A stretch of 64,000 nucleotides of DNA, from the NCBI RefSeq assembly GCF_014696355.1, contig NZ_JACJQA010000033.1, forward strand, positions 186,001 through 250,000. Reading direction: 5' to 3'. This DNA comes from Pseudanabaena sp. FACHB-1998 (GTDB lineage Bacteria; Cyanobacteriota; Cyanobacteriia; Pseudanabaenales; Pseudanabaenaceae). Within the stretch, counting starts at the first letter, position 1. Each line of letters begins with the position of its first letter. Positions 25,910 through 50,025 of this stretch are shown here, in pieces. Under the pieces are notes generated by a model. That model saw nothing but the letters and a program-made list of their open reading frames with translations. It was not told where the DNA came from and did no database searches. A program made the position numbers and the translations under genes.

Positions 25910-27055
25910 ATGGGTAGTAACCTAACAGTTCTGGCTATTACTGAATCATCTATGGGACACAAAACTTCTAGTGTTAGGATGAGTAAATATTTTGCATTGT
26001 CGTGCATTCAGGTTGATGTTTACTGCGATAATCAGGATAAAGAGGTATTAGTTCGTGTCATTAATAAGCTACTAAGTTTTAGGATTCCTATCAAATTTAT
26101 AGACGATCGCAACTTAGACTTCTTTCGTATTCGCGCCCAGCTTGGCTATGCCTTATTGACTCGCAGACTAATTGATAGAAAGACTAAACACAAAAAGTAT
26201 AATGTTTTGTACATGCATACTCAACCTTTGGCTTTTCTAGCATTAGATGTGATGAAAAAGATACCTACAGTAGTGAGCATTGATATGACTAATGTTCAAG
26301 CTTCGATAGAGGGGAAACATCATAAATACAATTGGACATATAGTCCGAATATATTTATGGAAAAGTTAGTTTATAACCATGCTACTAAGATCATAACTTT
26401 AACAGACTGGGCTAGAAACTCTGTTATTAATGATTATGGAATCCATCCTGACAAGGTAAAACATTTGCCTCCAGGGGTAGATACAAAGCTAGTAGTTTTT
26501 ACCAATCGTGAAAATAGGTCAAGACAGGTTCCGTATAACCTTCTATTTATTGGAGGAGATTTTAAACGGAAGGGTGGGGAAGATGTACTAGATGTTTTTT
26601 TGAAGAATTTTACTGACAAAGCAATTTTGCATATTGTTACTTCCGAATCAGTTAAGTGTGAACATCCGAATGTGCGAATATACAGCAATGTTCAGGCTTA
26701 CACACCTGAGTGGCTTGATTTATATCAACAGGCTGATGCTTTTGTGATGCCAAGTTATGCGGAGGCGTTTGGATTAGTCTTTATTGAGGCGATGGCATCG
26801 GGTTTGCCTGTGATCGCTTCTAAACTAGTACAGACAACTGAAATTGTGAAGGATGGGGAGACAGGTTTTTTAATTCCTGCTGGCGATCGCGAAGCATTAG
26901 CGAATAAAATCCAGACTTTGATTGATAATCCGAGTTTGAGTCTCGCCATGGGAAAGAGAGCCAGACAAATTGTCGAGTCAGATTTTGATAGTGATAAGAA
27001 CTTTCAAGTTTTGGAATCTATTTTTAGAGAATTGAGTGCAGCTAACAAGCAATAA
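25910..27055 (+). CDS. Glycosyltransferase, GT4 family
   Basis: 381-residue GT-B enzyme. Key stretches are KIITLTDWARNSVINDYGI, LPPGVDTKLV, LLFIGGDFKRKGGEDVLDVF and the E-x7-E signature MPSYAEAFGLVFIEAMASGL. Same direction as the gene before it, 107 bases away, so likely one transcript. The last 19 bases of the coding sequence are part of a long palindrome that reaches into the opposite gene. Confidence 0.9.
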   Translation: MGSNLTVLAITESSMGHKTSSVRMSKYFALSCIQVDVYCDNQDKEVLVRVINKLLSFRIPIKFIDDRNLDFFRIRAQLGYALLTRRLIDRKTKHKKYNVLYMHTQPLAFLALDVMKKIPTVVSIDMTNVQASIEGKHHKYNWTYSPNIFMEKLVYNHATKIITLTDWARNSVINDYGIHPDKVKHLPPGVDTKLVVFTNRENRSRQVPYNLLFIGGDFKRKGGEDVLDVFLKNFTDKAILHIVTSESVKCEHPNVRIYSNVQAYTPEWLDLYQQADAFVMPSYAEAFGLVFIEAMASGLPVIASKLVQTTEIVKDGETGFLIPAGDREALANKIQTLIDNPSLSLAMGKRARQIVESDFDSDKNFQVLESIFRELSAANKQ

Positions 27056-27109
27056 AAAAAGAGAGCCTTGCTAAGCAAGGCTCTCTTTTTTTATTGCTTG
27101 TTAGCTGCA
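27037..27109. terminator. 73-base perfect palindrome spanning the ends of two convergent genes
   Basis: Two perfect 36-base arms with a single base between them. The left arm holds the last 19 coding bases of the glycosyltransferase including its TAA; the right arm holds the last 9 bases of the HesB/IscA gene including its TAA. The inner part (GAGAGCCTTGCT / complement with A and T runs) is a strong bidirectional terminator. Confidence 0.9.
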
Positions 27110-27454
27110 AGCTACAGGTGCGCCAATTTCTTTGGGAGTAGCAAAGGAAGTACCGCAACTGCAAGACTTGCTGGCGTTAGGGTTACGGAAACGGAAGCCT
27201 CCCCCTAATAGATCTTCGGTATAGTCTAGTTCTAAACCTTGTAACTGAGGCAAGTTACTATTGTTAATAACAATTTTCACCCCATTATATTCATACTCGT
27301 TATCATCAGACTCTAGTTGTTCCGCAAAGTCCATCAAGTACGACAAACCAGAACATCCGCCTTGCTTAATGCCTAAACGTAAAGGAGCGGAGGTGGCTCG
27401 TTGAGTTTGAAGATTTTTGACGCGAGCGATCGCTGCATCAGTCAATGTAATCAT
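27101..27454 (-). CDS. HesB/IscA family iron-sulfur cluster assembly protein
   Basis: A-type carrier for Fe-S clusters, 117 residues. The three ligand cysteines are C34 in QGGCSGLSY and C98/C100 in SCSCGTSF. The tail after the CxC motif is 13-17 residues longer than in IscA and ends in Cys-Ser, encoded inside the palindrome. Which of the cyanobacterial A-type proteins (IscA, SufA, HesB-like) it represents cannot be told from sequence alone. Confidence 0.92.
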   Translation of the reverse strand: MITLTDAAIARVKNLQTQRATSAPLRLGIKQGGCSGLSYLMDFAEQLESDDNEYEYNGVKIVINNSNLPQLQGLELDYTEDLLGGGFRFRNPNASKSCSCGTSFATPKEIGAPVACS

Positions 27455-47432: not shown

Positions 47433-47468
47433 GGTTACAGCCATCCATAAATATTACTAACTTTGGTC

Positions 47469-48191
47469 ATGACGGACTGGTTACAACGCACGGAATTATT
47501 AATTGGCAATCATGGAATCGCCAAGCTCAAGCAGGCGAATGTCTTAGTGGTGGGCATGGGGGGCGTGGGGAGTTTTGCCGCCGAGTTTTTATGTCGGGCG
47601 GGGATCGGACGGATGACAATTGTGGATGGCGATCGCGTTGATCCTTCTAACAAAAATCGCCAGATTGTGGCTCTCGATAGTACGGTTGATGTGCATAAAG
47701 CGGATGTGATGGCGGCGAGAATGCAAGACATTAATCCTGAGTTGCAATTAACGTCAATGAAGGAATTTCTTACCCCTGATTTGATGATGGAATTGGTGAC
47801 AACCAAATTTGACTGGGTTTTAGATTGCATTGATAGTTTGCAACCTAAGTTATATTTTCTGGGGGCGGCGGTGACTAATGGCGTGAAGGTGGCGAGCAGT
47901 ATGGGGGCTGGTGGACGTGTTGATCCCCAAAAGGTGAGAATTGCGCCAATTTTTGAGACGGATTGCTGTCGCTTTGCTTATAAGGTGCGGAAGGGTTTGC
48001 GCCGCAAGGGTTTTGCTAATGCTCAGATTATGGCGGTGTATTCGGAGGAGTTGGTCAATCGCGATTCTTTGCAGTTAACCGATGGCAGTAATTTCAAGCG
48101 ATCGTATTACGGCACGATTTCCTATATTCCTGCGTTGTTTGGGATCAATATGGCAAGTATCGTCATTCGTGATTTGATTGCCGAATTTTAG
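47469..48191 (+). CDS. tcdA: tRNA threonylcarbamoyladenosine dehydratase (TcdA/CsdL, E1-like)
   Basis: ATP-using enzyme that cyclises t6A37 in tRNA. About 240 residues of the ThiF/MoeB/HesA fold. Seen are VLVVGMGGVGSFAAEFLCRAG (ATP loop), DGDRVDPSNKNRQ (catalytic Arg, Asn), GAGGRVDPQKV and the KVRKGLRRKG region with a CC pair just before. The ATG at 47469 is preferred over a TTG two codons earlier. Its last bases are part of a palindrome shared with the next gene. Confidence 0.9.
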   Translation: MTDWLQRTELLIGNHGIAKLKQANVLVVGMGGVGSFAAEFLCRAGIGRMTIVDGDRVDPSNKNRQIVALDSTVDVHKADVMAARMQDINPELQLTSMKEFLTPDLMMELVTTKFDWVLDCIDSLQPKLYFLGAAVTNGVKVASSMGAGGRVDPQKVRIAPIFETDCCRFAYKVRKGLRRKGFANAQIMAVYSEELVNRDSLQLTDGSNFKRSYYGTISYIPALFGINMASIVIRDLIAEF

Positions 48192-48233
48192 ATAAATTAA
48201 GGCGCTTTGCGCCTTAATTTATCTAAAATTCGG
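48181..48233. terminator. Perfect palindrome spanning both convergent stop codons
   Basis: 25-base perfect arms around TTT, GGCGC-GCGCC core. Each arm contains the end of a gene, so both proteins finish in Glu-Phe-stop with identical DNA (CGAATTTTAG). Confidence 0.9.
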
Positions 48234-50025
48234 GTTTGGTGGGTGGTGGGGTGATAAAAATAGCGATCGCATTGTGGACGGGCGCAATTTCGGTAATCGA
48301 ACGATTGAGAATATTCCCGCCTAAAAATAGGGTTGATGAACTGCCGCCATCAAGATTTAGGGCTTCAACTGCGCCAATTTTTTTGAGAACTTCCGCAGTT
48401 TGTAAGAGATTGGGTGCAACTCCATTGGGAGCCTCTTGGACGGTGACCAGCAGCAGTTTACCTTTATCTTTAGTGGTGGCGATCGCACTGCGATCCGCCG
48501 CTTGTGTATCAAAACCTGCTTGAAAATTCTCCGCTTTGCCATCAAGAACAAGATTCCCATTCTTGAGTAATAGGGGGCCTGCACCGATGAGGTTAGGGAA
48601 GTTGGCAAATTTTTCAGGGACAAAGGCTTGACGACCCTTGACCGTCATGCCCACAGGTAATTGCTTCGCGGCTTCGGGCGATTGCCTTGCTACTAAAACA
48701 TAGCCATCACTGGGGATCGTCACTTGACCAACACCGACTACGCCTCCTTGATATTGAGCAACAACGCGATCGCCTCTGACCACAATAATCAGTTCATTTT
48801 CGGTGAGGGGGGTGTAGCCACTGCCCCAGTTGGGCGTATACCGAGCTATCCCTCGTTGCACATAGGCACTATTGAGATTTGTGAGCGCGATTTTAGTTTG
48901 ATTGGCAGTAATTTCTTCCGTAAAATTCAGGCGATCAATCAGGGTTTCGCCCTTCTCATTCCAAGCGATCGCCCCCCGTACTAACGCTGTCCCTGCAATC
49001 CAGCGATTACCTTCCCGAATTGCGCCAACGGGTAACTGGCGAATCCGATTAAAAAATCCCCCATTGATCGCTCCCACAGCTTGGGCTTGTTCCACCATTT
49101 GCGGCACAGGACTTAGTCCAAGAATGCCATTGGGAGAGCCATCGGGATTGCTCCAAATCGGGCGGACTTTTAGGCGTGGTTGTTTCAGATCCACCTCTAG
49201 GGCGGTTACGGAAAACTTAATAGTTTTAGGATCTTGGGGATTTTTCGGCTTATGGGGAATTTCGACAATTTTTTCAATTCTTCGTAAACCATCCGCCCAT
49301 TGCACCGTCAGGCTAGGCGGTACATAGTCACGCCGTAAATCAATGACCATCCGAGGTGTAGGACTACTTAGCATTTCGATCGCAGGATTAATCGAATCAT
49401 TGGTTTGAATCTGAATCTGCGTTAGTTTTCCCTGCGGCTGAATGGTGACGGACTTCACGAGATTGCCAGCAATAGAATTAAGCCCAATGGGTAAATCTGA
49501 AGCCACTTCTGCGGAAACGATCAGATTAATGACATTGCCCTGCCGACTAACTCGCCAAGGTGTCCGTCGATTGAGATCGATTACAAGGCGATCGCCCCAA
49601 GGTTGTTTGCTACGGCGCACCGCTTGCATCAAAGTGTCAGGAGTATAAATATTGAGAGCATTACCTGAAATCTCTGTCCGCCATTGATCCGCAAAGGGGG
49701 TGAGATCCAGATAGCGAAATCTCCCCGTACTATCAAAGGCTACCCTAGAAAAAGTGGGACTAGAAAACCAGCGTAATCGTTGGCGATCGCTTTTTTCCGA
49801 ATCCAGCATCTGTACGCCCAAACCGCCAGTGAGCCAATCCTCTTGCACATAGAGATTTTGCTGTCCCTGTTCCACTTTTCGGAGCCAACGTCCTGACCAA
49901 GGCTGTCCATTTAGCTGAATCACAGTTCCGCTATTAGGAGTGGCGGATGGGGCGCTATCGGCGATGACAAATTGACAGCAAGCGGCAAGAATCGGAATTA
50001 GCGTTTTACGGTATGTCATTTTCAT
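48223..50025 (-). CDS. NAGPA-type phosphodiester glycosidase-domain protein (DUF2233), exported
   Basis: 600 residues with a signal peptide about 1-25. The middle (about 150-245) resembles an AMIN-like region (DRLVIDLNRRTPWRV and VIDLRRDYVPP). The C-terminal part, about 320-590, is the NAGPA/DUF2233 domain: AINGGFFN, VGAIREGNRW, IGAGPLLLKNG and the closing LNLDGGSSSTLFLGG. In other bacteria such proteins act on cell-surface polysaccharide. Substrate unknown. Confidence 0.85.
   Translation of the reverse strand: MKMTYRKTLIPILAACCQFVIADSAPSATPNSGTVIQLNGQPWSGRWLRKVEQGQQNLYVQEDWLTGGLGVQMLDSEKSDRQRLRWFSSPTFSRVAFDSTGRFRYLDLTPFADQWRTEISGNALNIYTPDTLMQAVRRSKQPWGDRLVIDLNRRTPWRVSRQGNVINLIVSAEVASDLPIGLNSIAGNLVKSVTIQPQGKLTQIQIQTNDSINPAIEMLSSPTPRMVIDLRRDYVPPSLTVQWADGLRRIEKIVEIPHKPKNPQDPKTIKFSVTALEVDLKQPRLKVRPIWSNPDGSPNGILGLSPVPQMVEQAQAVGAINGGFFNRIRQLPVGAIREGNRWIAGTALVRGAIAWNEKGETLIDRLNFTEEITANQTKIALTNLNSAYVQRGIARYTPNWGSGYTPLTENELIIVVRGDRVVAQYQGGVVGVGQVTIPSDGYVLVARQSPEAAKQLPVGMTVKGRQAFVPEKFANFPNLIGAGPLLLKNGNLVLDGKAENFQAGFDTQAADRSAIATTKDKGKLLLVTVQEAPNGVAPNLLQTAEVLKKIGAVEALNLDGGSSSTLFLGGNILNRSITEIAPVHNAIAIFITPPPTKPEF

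Follow-up and report, generated by a model that had tools for sequence, protein, structure and literature searches.

Known systems of palindromes and template switching

Cyanobacterial genomes carry small dispersed repeats, which comprise many short repeated palindromic elements. Palindromes are over-represented in most prokaryotic phyla (PMC4060949, in which the word Pseudanabaena does not occur). Several described systems resemble what is reported below. REPINs also are many short repeated palindromic elements (PMC3116915), long perfect inverted repeats occur in the coding DNA of Nematomorpha mitochondria (PMC6649704), and imperfect inverted repeats are template-switch hotspots that give quasipalindrome mutations in E. 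coli (PMC7202029). The closest parallels come from two studies of template switching. In RNA genes, Monttinen and Loytynoja (2022; PMC8794818) described reverse-complement copying that yields perfect stems; several compensatory changes at once, longer stems and inverted loops go with it. For inverted repeats in yeast, Abraham and Hazkani-Covo (2021; PMC8604942) described arm homogenisation, spacer inversion, recurrence and amino-acid changes. Homogenised arms, lengthened stems and inverted loops are published footprints of the process, and inversions point to switching between strands, self-folding of the nascent strand keeping the loop as it was (PMC8794818, PMC8604942).

As a rule, template switching at such repeats is deduced from isolated events. 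The window analysed here, a stretch of 64,000 nucleotides from Pseudanabaena sp. FACHB-1998, contains a perfect palindrome that spans the ends of two convergent genes. Judging from the sequences compared below, template switching at a hairpin quite probably lengthened this palindrome and wrote the end of a hesB gene onto a glycosyltransferase gene.

A palindrome made of two gene ends

The preliminary description of this DNA had reported a perfect 36-base inverted repeat with arms one base apart, holding the last 19 bases of a glycosyltransferase gene and the last 9 of a HesB/IscA gene with both stop codons. All of this is borne out by the alignment of the arms and by the coordinates of the open reading frames (Table 1). 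The arms (27037-27072 and 27074-27109) are 100% complementary over 36 nucleotides with a single nucleotide between them. The coding part of the left arm, stop counted in, consists of the last base of a Ser codon followed by GCA GCT AAC AAG CAA TAA of the glycosyltransferase, and that of the right arm is Cys-Ser-stop of HesB/IscA. The window has 55 inverted-repeat pairs with arms of at least 16 nt lying at most 200 nt apart, and this palindrome is the longest perfect one among the 25 longest of the 55. Folded as single-stranded DNA it reaches -42.1 kcal/mol, against a mean of -11.8 for shuffled sequences (z = -15). A known RNA family is rejected as its identity, Rfam at gathering thresholds finding only a tRNA in the window.

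Table 1. Coordinates of the convergent genes and palindromes (window positions unless a locus is named)
Feature	Position	Strand	Remarks
Perfect palindrome	27037..27109	.	36-nt arms, 1-nt centre, 73 bases in all
Core, predicted bidirectional terminator-like hairpin	27054..27092	.	A and T tracts (AAAAAAAGAGAGCCTTGC...GCAAGGCTCTCTTTTTTT)
Outer arm, putative recipient side	27037..27053	+	Apparent reverse-complement copy of HesB end; encodes tail AANKQ and first stop base
Outer arm, putative donor side	27093..27109	-	HesB Cys-Ser-stop and 8 downstream bases
Group 1/family 4 glycosyltransferase gene, probable recipient	25910..27055	+	Pfam PF00534 and others
HesB/IscA (Fe-S_biosyn) gene, probable donor	27101..27454	-	Pfam PF01521
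Second convergent-pair palindrome	48181..48233	.	25-nt arms; both genes end Glu-Phe-stop
ThiF-family gene	47463-48191	+	Converges on NAGPA-domain gene at 48181..48233
NAGPA-domain gene	48223-50025	-	Converges on ThiF-family gene at 48181..48233
Third convergent-pair palindrome	L118 955-1009		sat ends GFEI*, csaB-like gene ends KIFEI*

The core of the palindrome looks like a bidirectional terminator. This prediction comes from a GC-rich stem with a T tract behind it, whichever strand is read (2 terminator-like consensus matches, against an average of 0.7 in shuffled sequences), and a hairpin is present at the same position in most relatives. For the 17 bp of the arm that lie past the T tract, the probability of a chance match is, by simple arithmetic, about 4^-17.

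Tails of the two proteins

The preliminary description had suggested that template switching at a hairpin wrote the end of one gene onto the facing gene, and that comparison with orthologues should reveal which tail differs from its family. The HesB tail is the conserved one. This ending is VACS* in every one of the 24 other genus copies read, and five copies from other genera of the family have VACS* or VSCS*. The HesB query aligns through its last residue in each of the 24 other genomes of the genus that have a full-length match, as well as with a fragment in G005. The last nine bases, TGCAGCTAA, are exact in five of the 24 other genus copies and differ synonymously in the remainder.

The glycosyltransferase is rarer; with a limit of E<=1e-60, it has matches in 4 of the 25 other genomes of the genus (5 of 26 counting Pseudanabaena sp. 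FACHB-1998). The four orthologues share 61-65% identity with it and align to residue 377-378 of 381, and they end LSTCLKN, LSTKYISRVLPK, LSQT and VSQVK, where the window copy ends LSAANKQ. Past the Leu/Val-Ser their tails are thus TCLKN, TKYISRVLPK, QT and QVK; all four differ from AANKQ, and they also vary among themselves. The best Pfam stretches in the glycosyltransferase end by residue 367 of 381, so that the AANKQ tail lies outside them. Since the HesB tail is kept and the glycosyltransferase tail deviates, HesB is probably the donor of the copied end and the glycosyltransferase the recipient. The outcome that would have spoken against copying, namely both tails retained in genomes lacking the neighbour, is absent for the glycosyltransferase; the proposal is therefore supported, the event at this locus being inferred.

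Several observations limit the case. The glycosyltransferase comparison has no more than four orthologues, with tails unlike one another, and just 9 nt of the arm belong to the HesB coding sequence; both count against copying. In addition, none of the four other glycosyltransferase-bearing genus genomes has the hesB/glycosyltransferase pair, the gene lying on another contig or more than 200 kb from hesB, and the event at 27037 is therefore reconstructed without a before state. The shorter hairpin expected in sister strains does occur: in most of them the corresponding site behind hesB has a hairpin with shorter arms, though without the glycosyltransferase neighbour.

Other convergent pairs

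Both genes of a convergent pair are caught by four palindromes in the 284 kb sampled from the window's contig (window 27037, window 48181, L113 11382 and L118 955). At 48181, ThiF ends IRDLIAEF* in the window, and in 22 relatives the reading is IRDLI plus one residue, IRDLT*, IRDLMQ* or similar. In 20 of these 22 relatives the aligned part reaches no further than residue 237 or 238 of 240, and in the other two it runs through a stop; the window protein is longer than its relatives by Glu-Phe. For the NAGPA-domain protein, 23 relatives have the ending ..QF*, and the window has ..EF*. On this comparison of tails, the roles of the NAGPA-domain gene as putative donor and of thiF as putative recipient appear clear. 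At window 48223-48234 the NAGPA side thus has Glu-Phe where the 23 relatives have Gln-Phe, the donor end being altered inside the arm too; this change from Q to E might be a later point change or copying back. Among the 22 relatives (G000 left out), four (G011, G012, G016 and G018) carry a copy of ThiF's own end downstream.

The pair in L118 associates sat, encoding ATP sulfurylase, with a gene that matches PF04230 in Pfam. The latter is a csaB-like pyruvyl transferase gene. Sat ends FEI* or FQI* in 26 of 26 genomes, and the csaB ends of most relatives are KILS, KILN, KILL, KILG, KILA, KIFG and the like. The convergent pair is retained in G005 with a csaB end of QQILST and a shorter hairpin. 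In G024 the two genes adjoin, csaB ending KILEI* and sat FQI* (L167), and both gene ends share AAATTTAA; the Glu-Ile-stop of csaB may be older than the copy in L118, or G024 may have an older copy of its own. Because of this csaB end in G024, donor and recipient are less clear and the sat/csaB pair is support of lesser weight. The csaB loci of G003, G014, G015 and G024 had no tail motif and were unscored in the strain comparison; read separately, their ends are KILSS in G003, KQIL in G014 and KILEI in G024, that of G015 being cut by the contig end.

Taking as a copy at least 8 nt of the sat end, stop counted, with up to 3 mismatches and 1 gap, the sat end lies inside a hairpin arm in 9 of 26 strains (G000, G003, G004, G008, G009, G011, G013, G015 and G019); the other 17 lack the extension, which counts against the process. 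The outer junctions of these copies are of five kinds (TATTTT; TTTACG; GCATAA; GTGACAC; AGGACTT), which speaks for several separate histories, and similar copies with an identical junction are common to several strains, GCATAA to G004, G011, G015 and G019 and GTGACAC to G008 and G013. The copy in G003 is of that strain's own variant of the sat end, TTGAAATATAA. Its sister G014 has flanks that remain alignable beyond the copied stretch, and the sat end is copied in G003 only; the loop of the G003 hairpin is inverted relative to G014. In G016, csaB's own end is copied. Parsimony on a four-protein tree of 26 strains requires at least 8 state changes for the sat copy and 4 for thiF.

Density and placement of hairpins

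The preliminary description treated the palindrome as a singular case, a view that does not hold: the pattern is genus-wide, and the window has 24 others of its type. The 25 perfect repeats of the window (arm at least 12, loop at most 8) compare with none in each of five first-order Markov simulations, which rules out chance as their origin. In 284 kb of the same contig, window counted in, there are 146 perfect hairpins with arms of at least 14, or 514 per Mb, of which 101 have a 3-base loop; if the sampled density holds, the whole genome would have about 2,000 intergenic hairpins. G023 has 38 in 180 kb (211 per Mb), and in nine further genus genomes, each sampled over 20-74 kb, the density lies between 50 and 500 per Mb. 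Hairpins of the same type number 0 in 160 kb sampled from four other genera of the family and 4 in 240 kb from twelve genomes of other families. The spread within the genus is about tenfold, from 50 per Mb in the small samples L248, L249 (G002) and L267 (G001) to about 500 in G019 and G000, and might help in tracing a genetic cause.

Hairpins lie mainly between genes. Of the 146, 107 are intergenic, 9 are inside an ORF, 33 overlap 3' ends and 2 overlap 5' ends; the sum is 151 because five palindromes are counted at two ORFs, and the genes are long ORFs, uncurated. In 12 of the 146 the palindrome includes 6 nt or more from the 3' end of an ORF, stop counted, and in the four named above it does so for both genes of a convergent pair.

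The 3-base loops in the window and in L110-L120 are mostly TTC, TTT, AAA and GAA, and the inner arms GGCGC, ATGGC and GTTGC recur. GC-closed triloops form very stable DNA mini-hairpins. Such stable triloops might prime fold-back. Elsewhere on the window's contig, two unlike ORFs, L110:7257-8304 (alpha/beta-hydrolase-like, as named from its sequence) and L119:11231-13353 (likewise named DNA-ligase-like), both end ..PPKN*, because their 3' ends sit in hairpins with the same outer arm, CCCAAGAATTAG. A dispersed hairpin family thus seems to supply stop codons and tails.

Loss of a hairpin nuclease is rejected as the cause of this abundance. Matches to SbcD (TIGR00619) occur in 57 of 58 genomes and exceed the cut-off in all 26 genus genomes, and exonuclease VII (PF02601) is likewise matched in all 26. 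Of the four family outgroups sampled for hairpins, all with zero, G027 and G029 have exonuclease VII, which G026 and G028 lack. This distribution of the two nucleases therefore does not explain hairpin abundance. A second SbcD-like match (G000:C41:45209-45970) is over the cut-off in 25 of 26 genus genomes, and 7 of 9 family outgroups have exactly one match. As a cause the second match looked promising, but G012 is rich in hairpins with a single match.

Compensated changes and loop inversion

Changes in the arms were counted in 122 hairpin comparisons (arm at least 14, same anchor gene, aligned strain pairs), from which G025, a near copy of G023, arms below 14, differing anchor genes and hairpins with more than half of their pairs gapped were left out. 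At a divergence of up to 12%, 2057 pairs are unchanged, 146 are compensated, 20 are double-changed and unpaired, and 203 are changed on one side. With independent arms, 6.2 compensated and 373 one-sided changes are expected. The excess of compensated changes is thus about twentyfold, on a rough expectation, as divergence was taken over whole aligned stretches including coding DNA and so understates intergenic divergence; the rows include both directions of strain pairs and related strains, and the counts are therefore non-independent. Since one-sided changes outnumber compensated ones and 20 doubles are unpaired, homogenisation is incomplete. Among 69 three-base loops compared, 23 are the same, 21 are exact reverse complements, some between identical arms, and 25 are otherwise different.

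Mechanism and alternatives

Under the preferred reading, the starting point would be a terminator hairpin downstream of hesB. During DNA synthesis, a nascent strand that already held the hesB end and the first arm would quit its template at the hairpin, copy itself or the opposite strand for about 36 nt, thereby laying down the reverse complement of the hesB end, and rejoin the template within the 3'-terminal part of the convergent glycosyltransferase gene. The arms would thus become perfect and take in both stop codons; behind its Leu-Ser, the glycosyltransferase would receive Ala-Ala-Asn-Lys-Gln-stop in place of its former tail. The polymerase step, the direction of synthesis and the choice between a within-strand and a between-strand switch are what we infer; fold-back within a strand and switching between strands may both act here. 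Three kinds of observation argue for such copying: a multi-base change in one arm can be explained by copying of the other arm at hesB, at NAGPA/thiF and at sat in G003/G014, compensated changes are in excess, and 21 of the 69 loops are inverted.

Could selection by itself produce the same picture, a bidirectional terminator being favoured between convergent genes and compensating point mutations keeping its stem perfect? The terminator-like core on both strands, the hairpin behind hesB in most strains and the 33 overlaps with ORF 3' ends against two with 5' ends would all suit it. It is nonetheless very unlikely, for the arms continue for 17 bp after the T tract and so reach the coding ends of the two genes, which a terminator does not need, the letters of the copied arms follow each strain's own gene, and inversion of 3-nt loops is nearly as frequent as retention. 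Inverted loops and coding ends copied past the T tract are hard to explain by selection on an RNA stem. Processing of an extruded cruciform, by Holliday-type resolution or arm recombination and by mismatch repair in the stem, would account for flipped loops and homogenised arms, and the second SbcD-like match in most genus genomes fits with it. Such processing does not readily lengthen arms past the end of matching, however, and 74 kb of G012, where SbcD is matched only once, contain 22 hairpins, so that we regard it as unlikely.

Insertion of a mobile palindromic repeat between the genes, supplying both tails, has a precedent of sorts in the dispersed hairpins with similar arms and the two ORFs ending ..PPKN*. 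Yet the outer arm, CAGCTAACAAGCAAT, is found exactly nowhere in the genome beyond the two arms of 27037-27109 (one further place has 1 mismatch and 11 have 2), none of the off-locus matches among those listed in 26 genus genomes covers the whole palindrome, and the HesB tail is ancestral and was therefore not brought by an insert; this origin is highly improbable. Still less credible is a snap-back chimera of assembly or amplification. The source genome is indeed a draft of 64 contigs, but palindromes of the same class occur in the single-contig genomes G023 and G002, several strains share sat copies with the same outer junction, and both ORFs at 27037-27109 remain open. Template switching thus remains the preferred reading of the locus. 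For the genus as a whole, we give about even chances to a broader proposal, that a lineage-specific and highly active hairpin copying keeps the intergenic hairpins of Pseudanabaena perfect, flips their loops and overwrites convergent gene ends. If this were true, unrelated proteins would gain shared or antisense-derived C-termini, and template switching would be a dominant force on gene ends across a bacterial genus.

Comparison with known systems

The mutation process is already known. A published account of such a density of it in a bacterial genus, or of the writing of a gene end onto a convergent neighbour, was not found in the literature searched, which lay outside most subscription journals. 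In most Pseudanabaena samples there are hundreds of hairpins per megabase, with intermediates strain by strain, and copy length, polarity, loop choice and rate are measurable from these genomes alone. A protein may gain a new C-terminus in one step from its neighbour's antisense. The data also call for caution, as compensatory changes in bacterial hairpins need not mean selection on RNA structure.

In contrast with REPINs (PMC3116915), the outer arms of 27037-27109 have no exact copy elsewhere in the genome. The inverted repeats of Nematomorpha are embedded within mitochondrial genes (PMC6649704), and the topic of the E. coli study is small molecules that promote quasipalindrome mutations (PMC7202029). 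The template-switch hairpins of Monttinen and Loytynoja (PMC8794818) concern RNA genes and show few loop inversions, whereas those of Pseudanabaena are mostly intergenic, number hundreds per Mb, invert their loops frequently and appear to be copied into protein-coding ends. The yeast events lie in 39 protein-coding genes of S. cerevisiae, and a word search of that paper (PMC8604942) finds neither "convergent" nor "C-terminal"; in Pseudanabaena, by comparison, the end of one gene appears to have been written onto its convergent neighbour.
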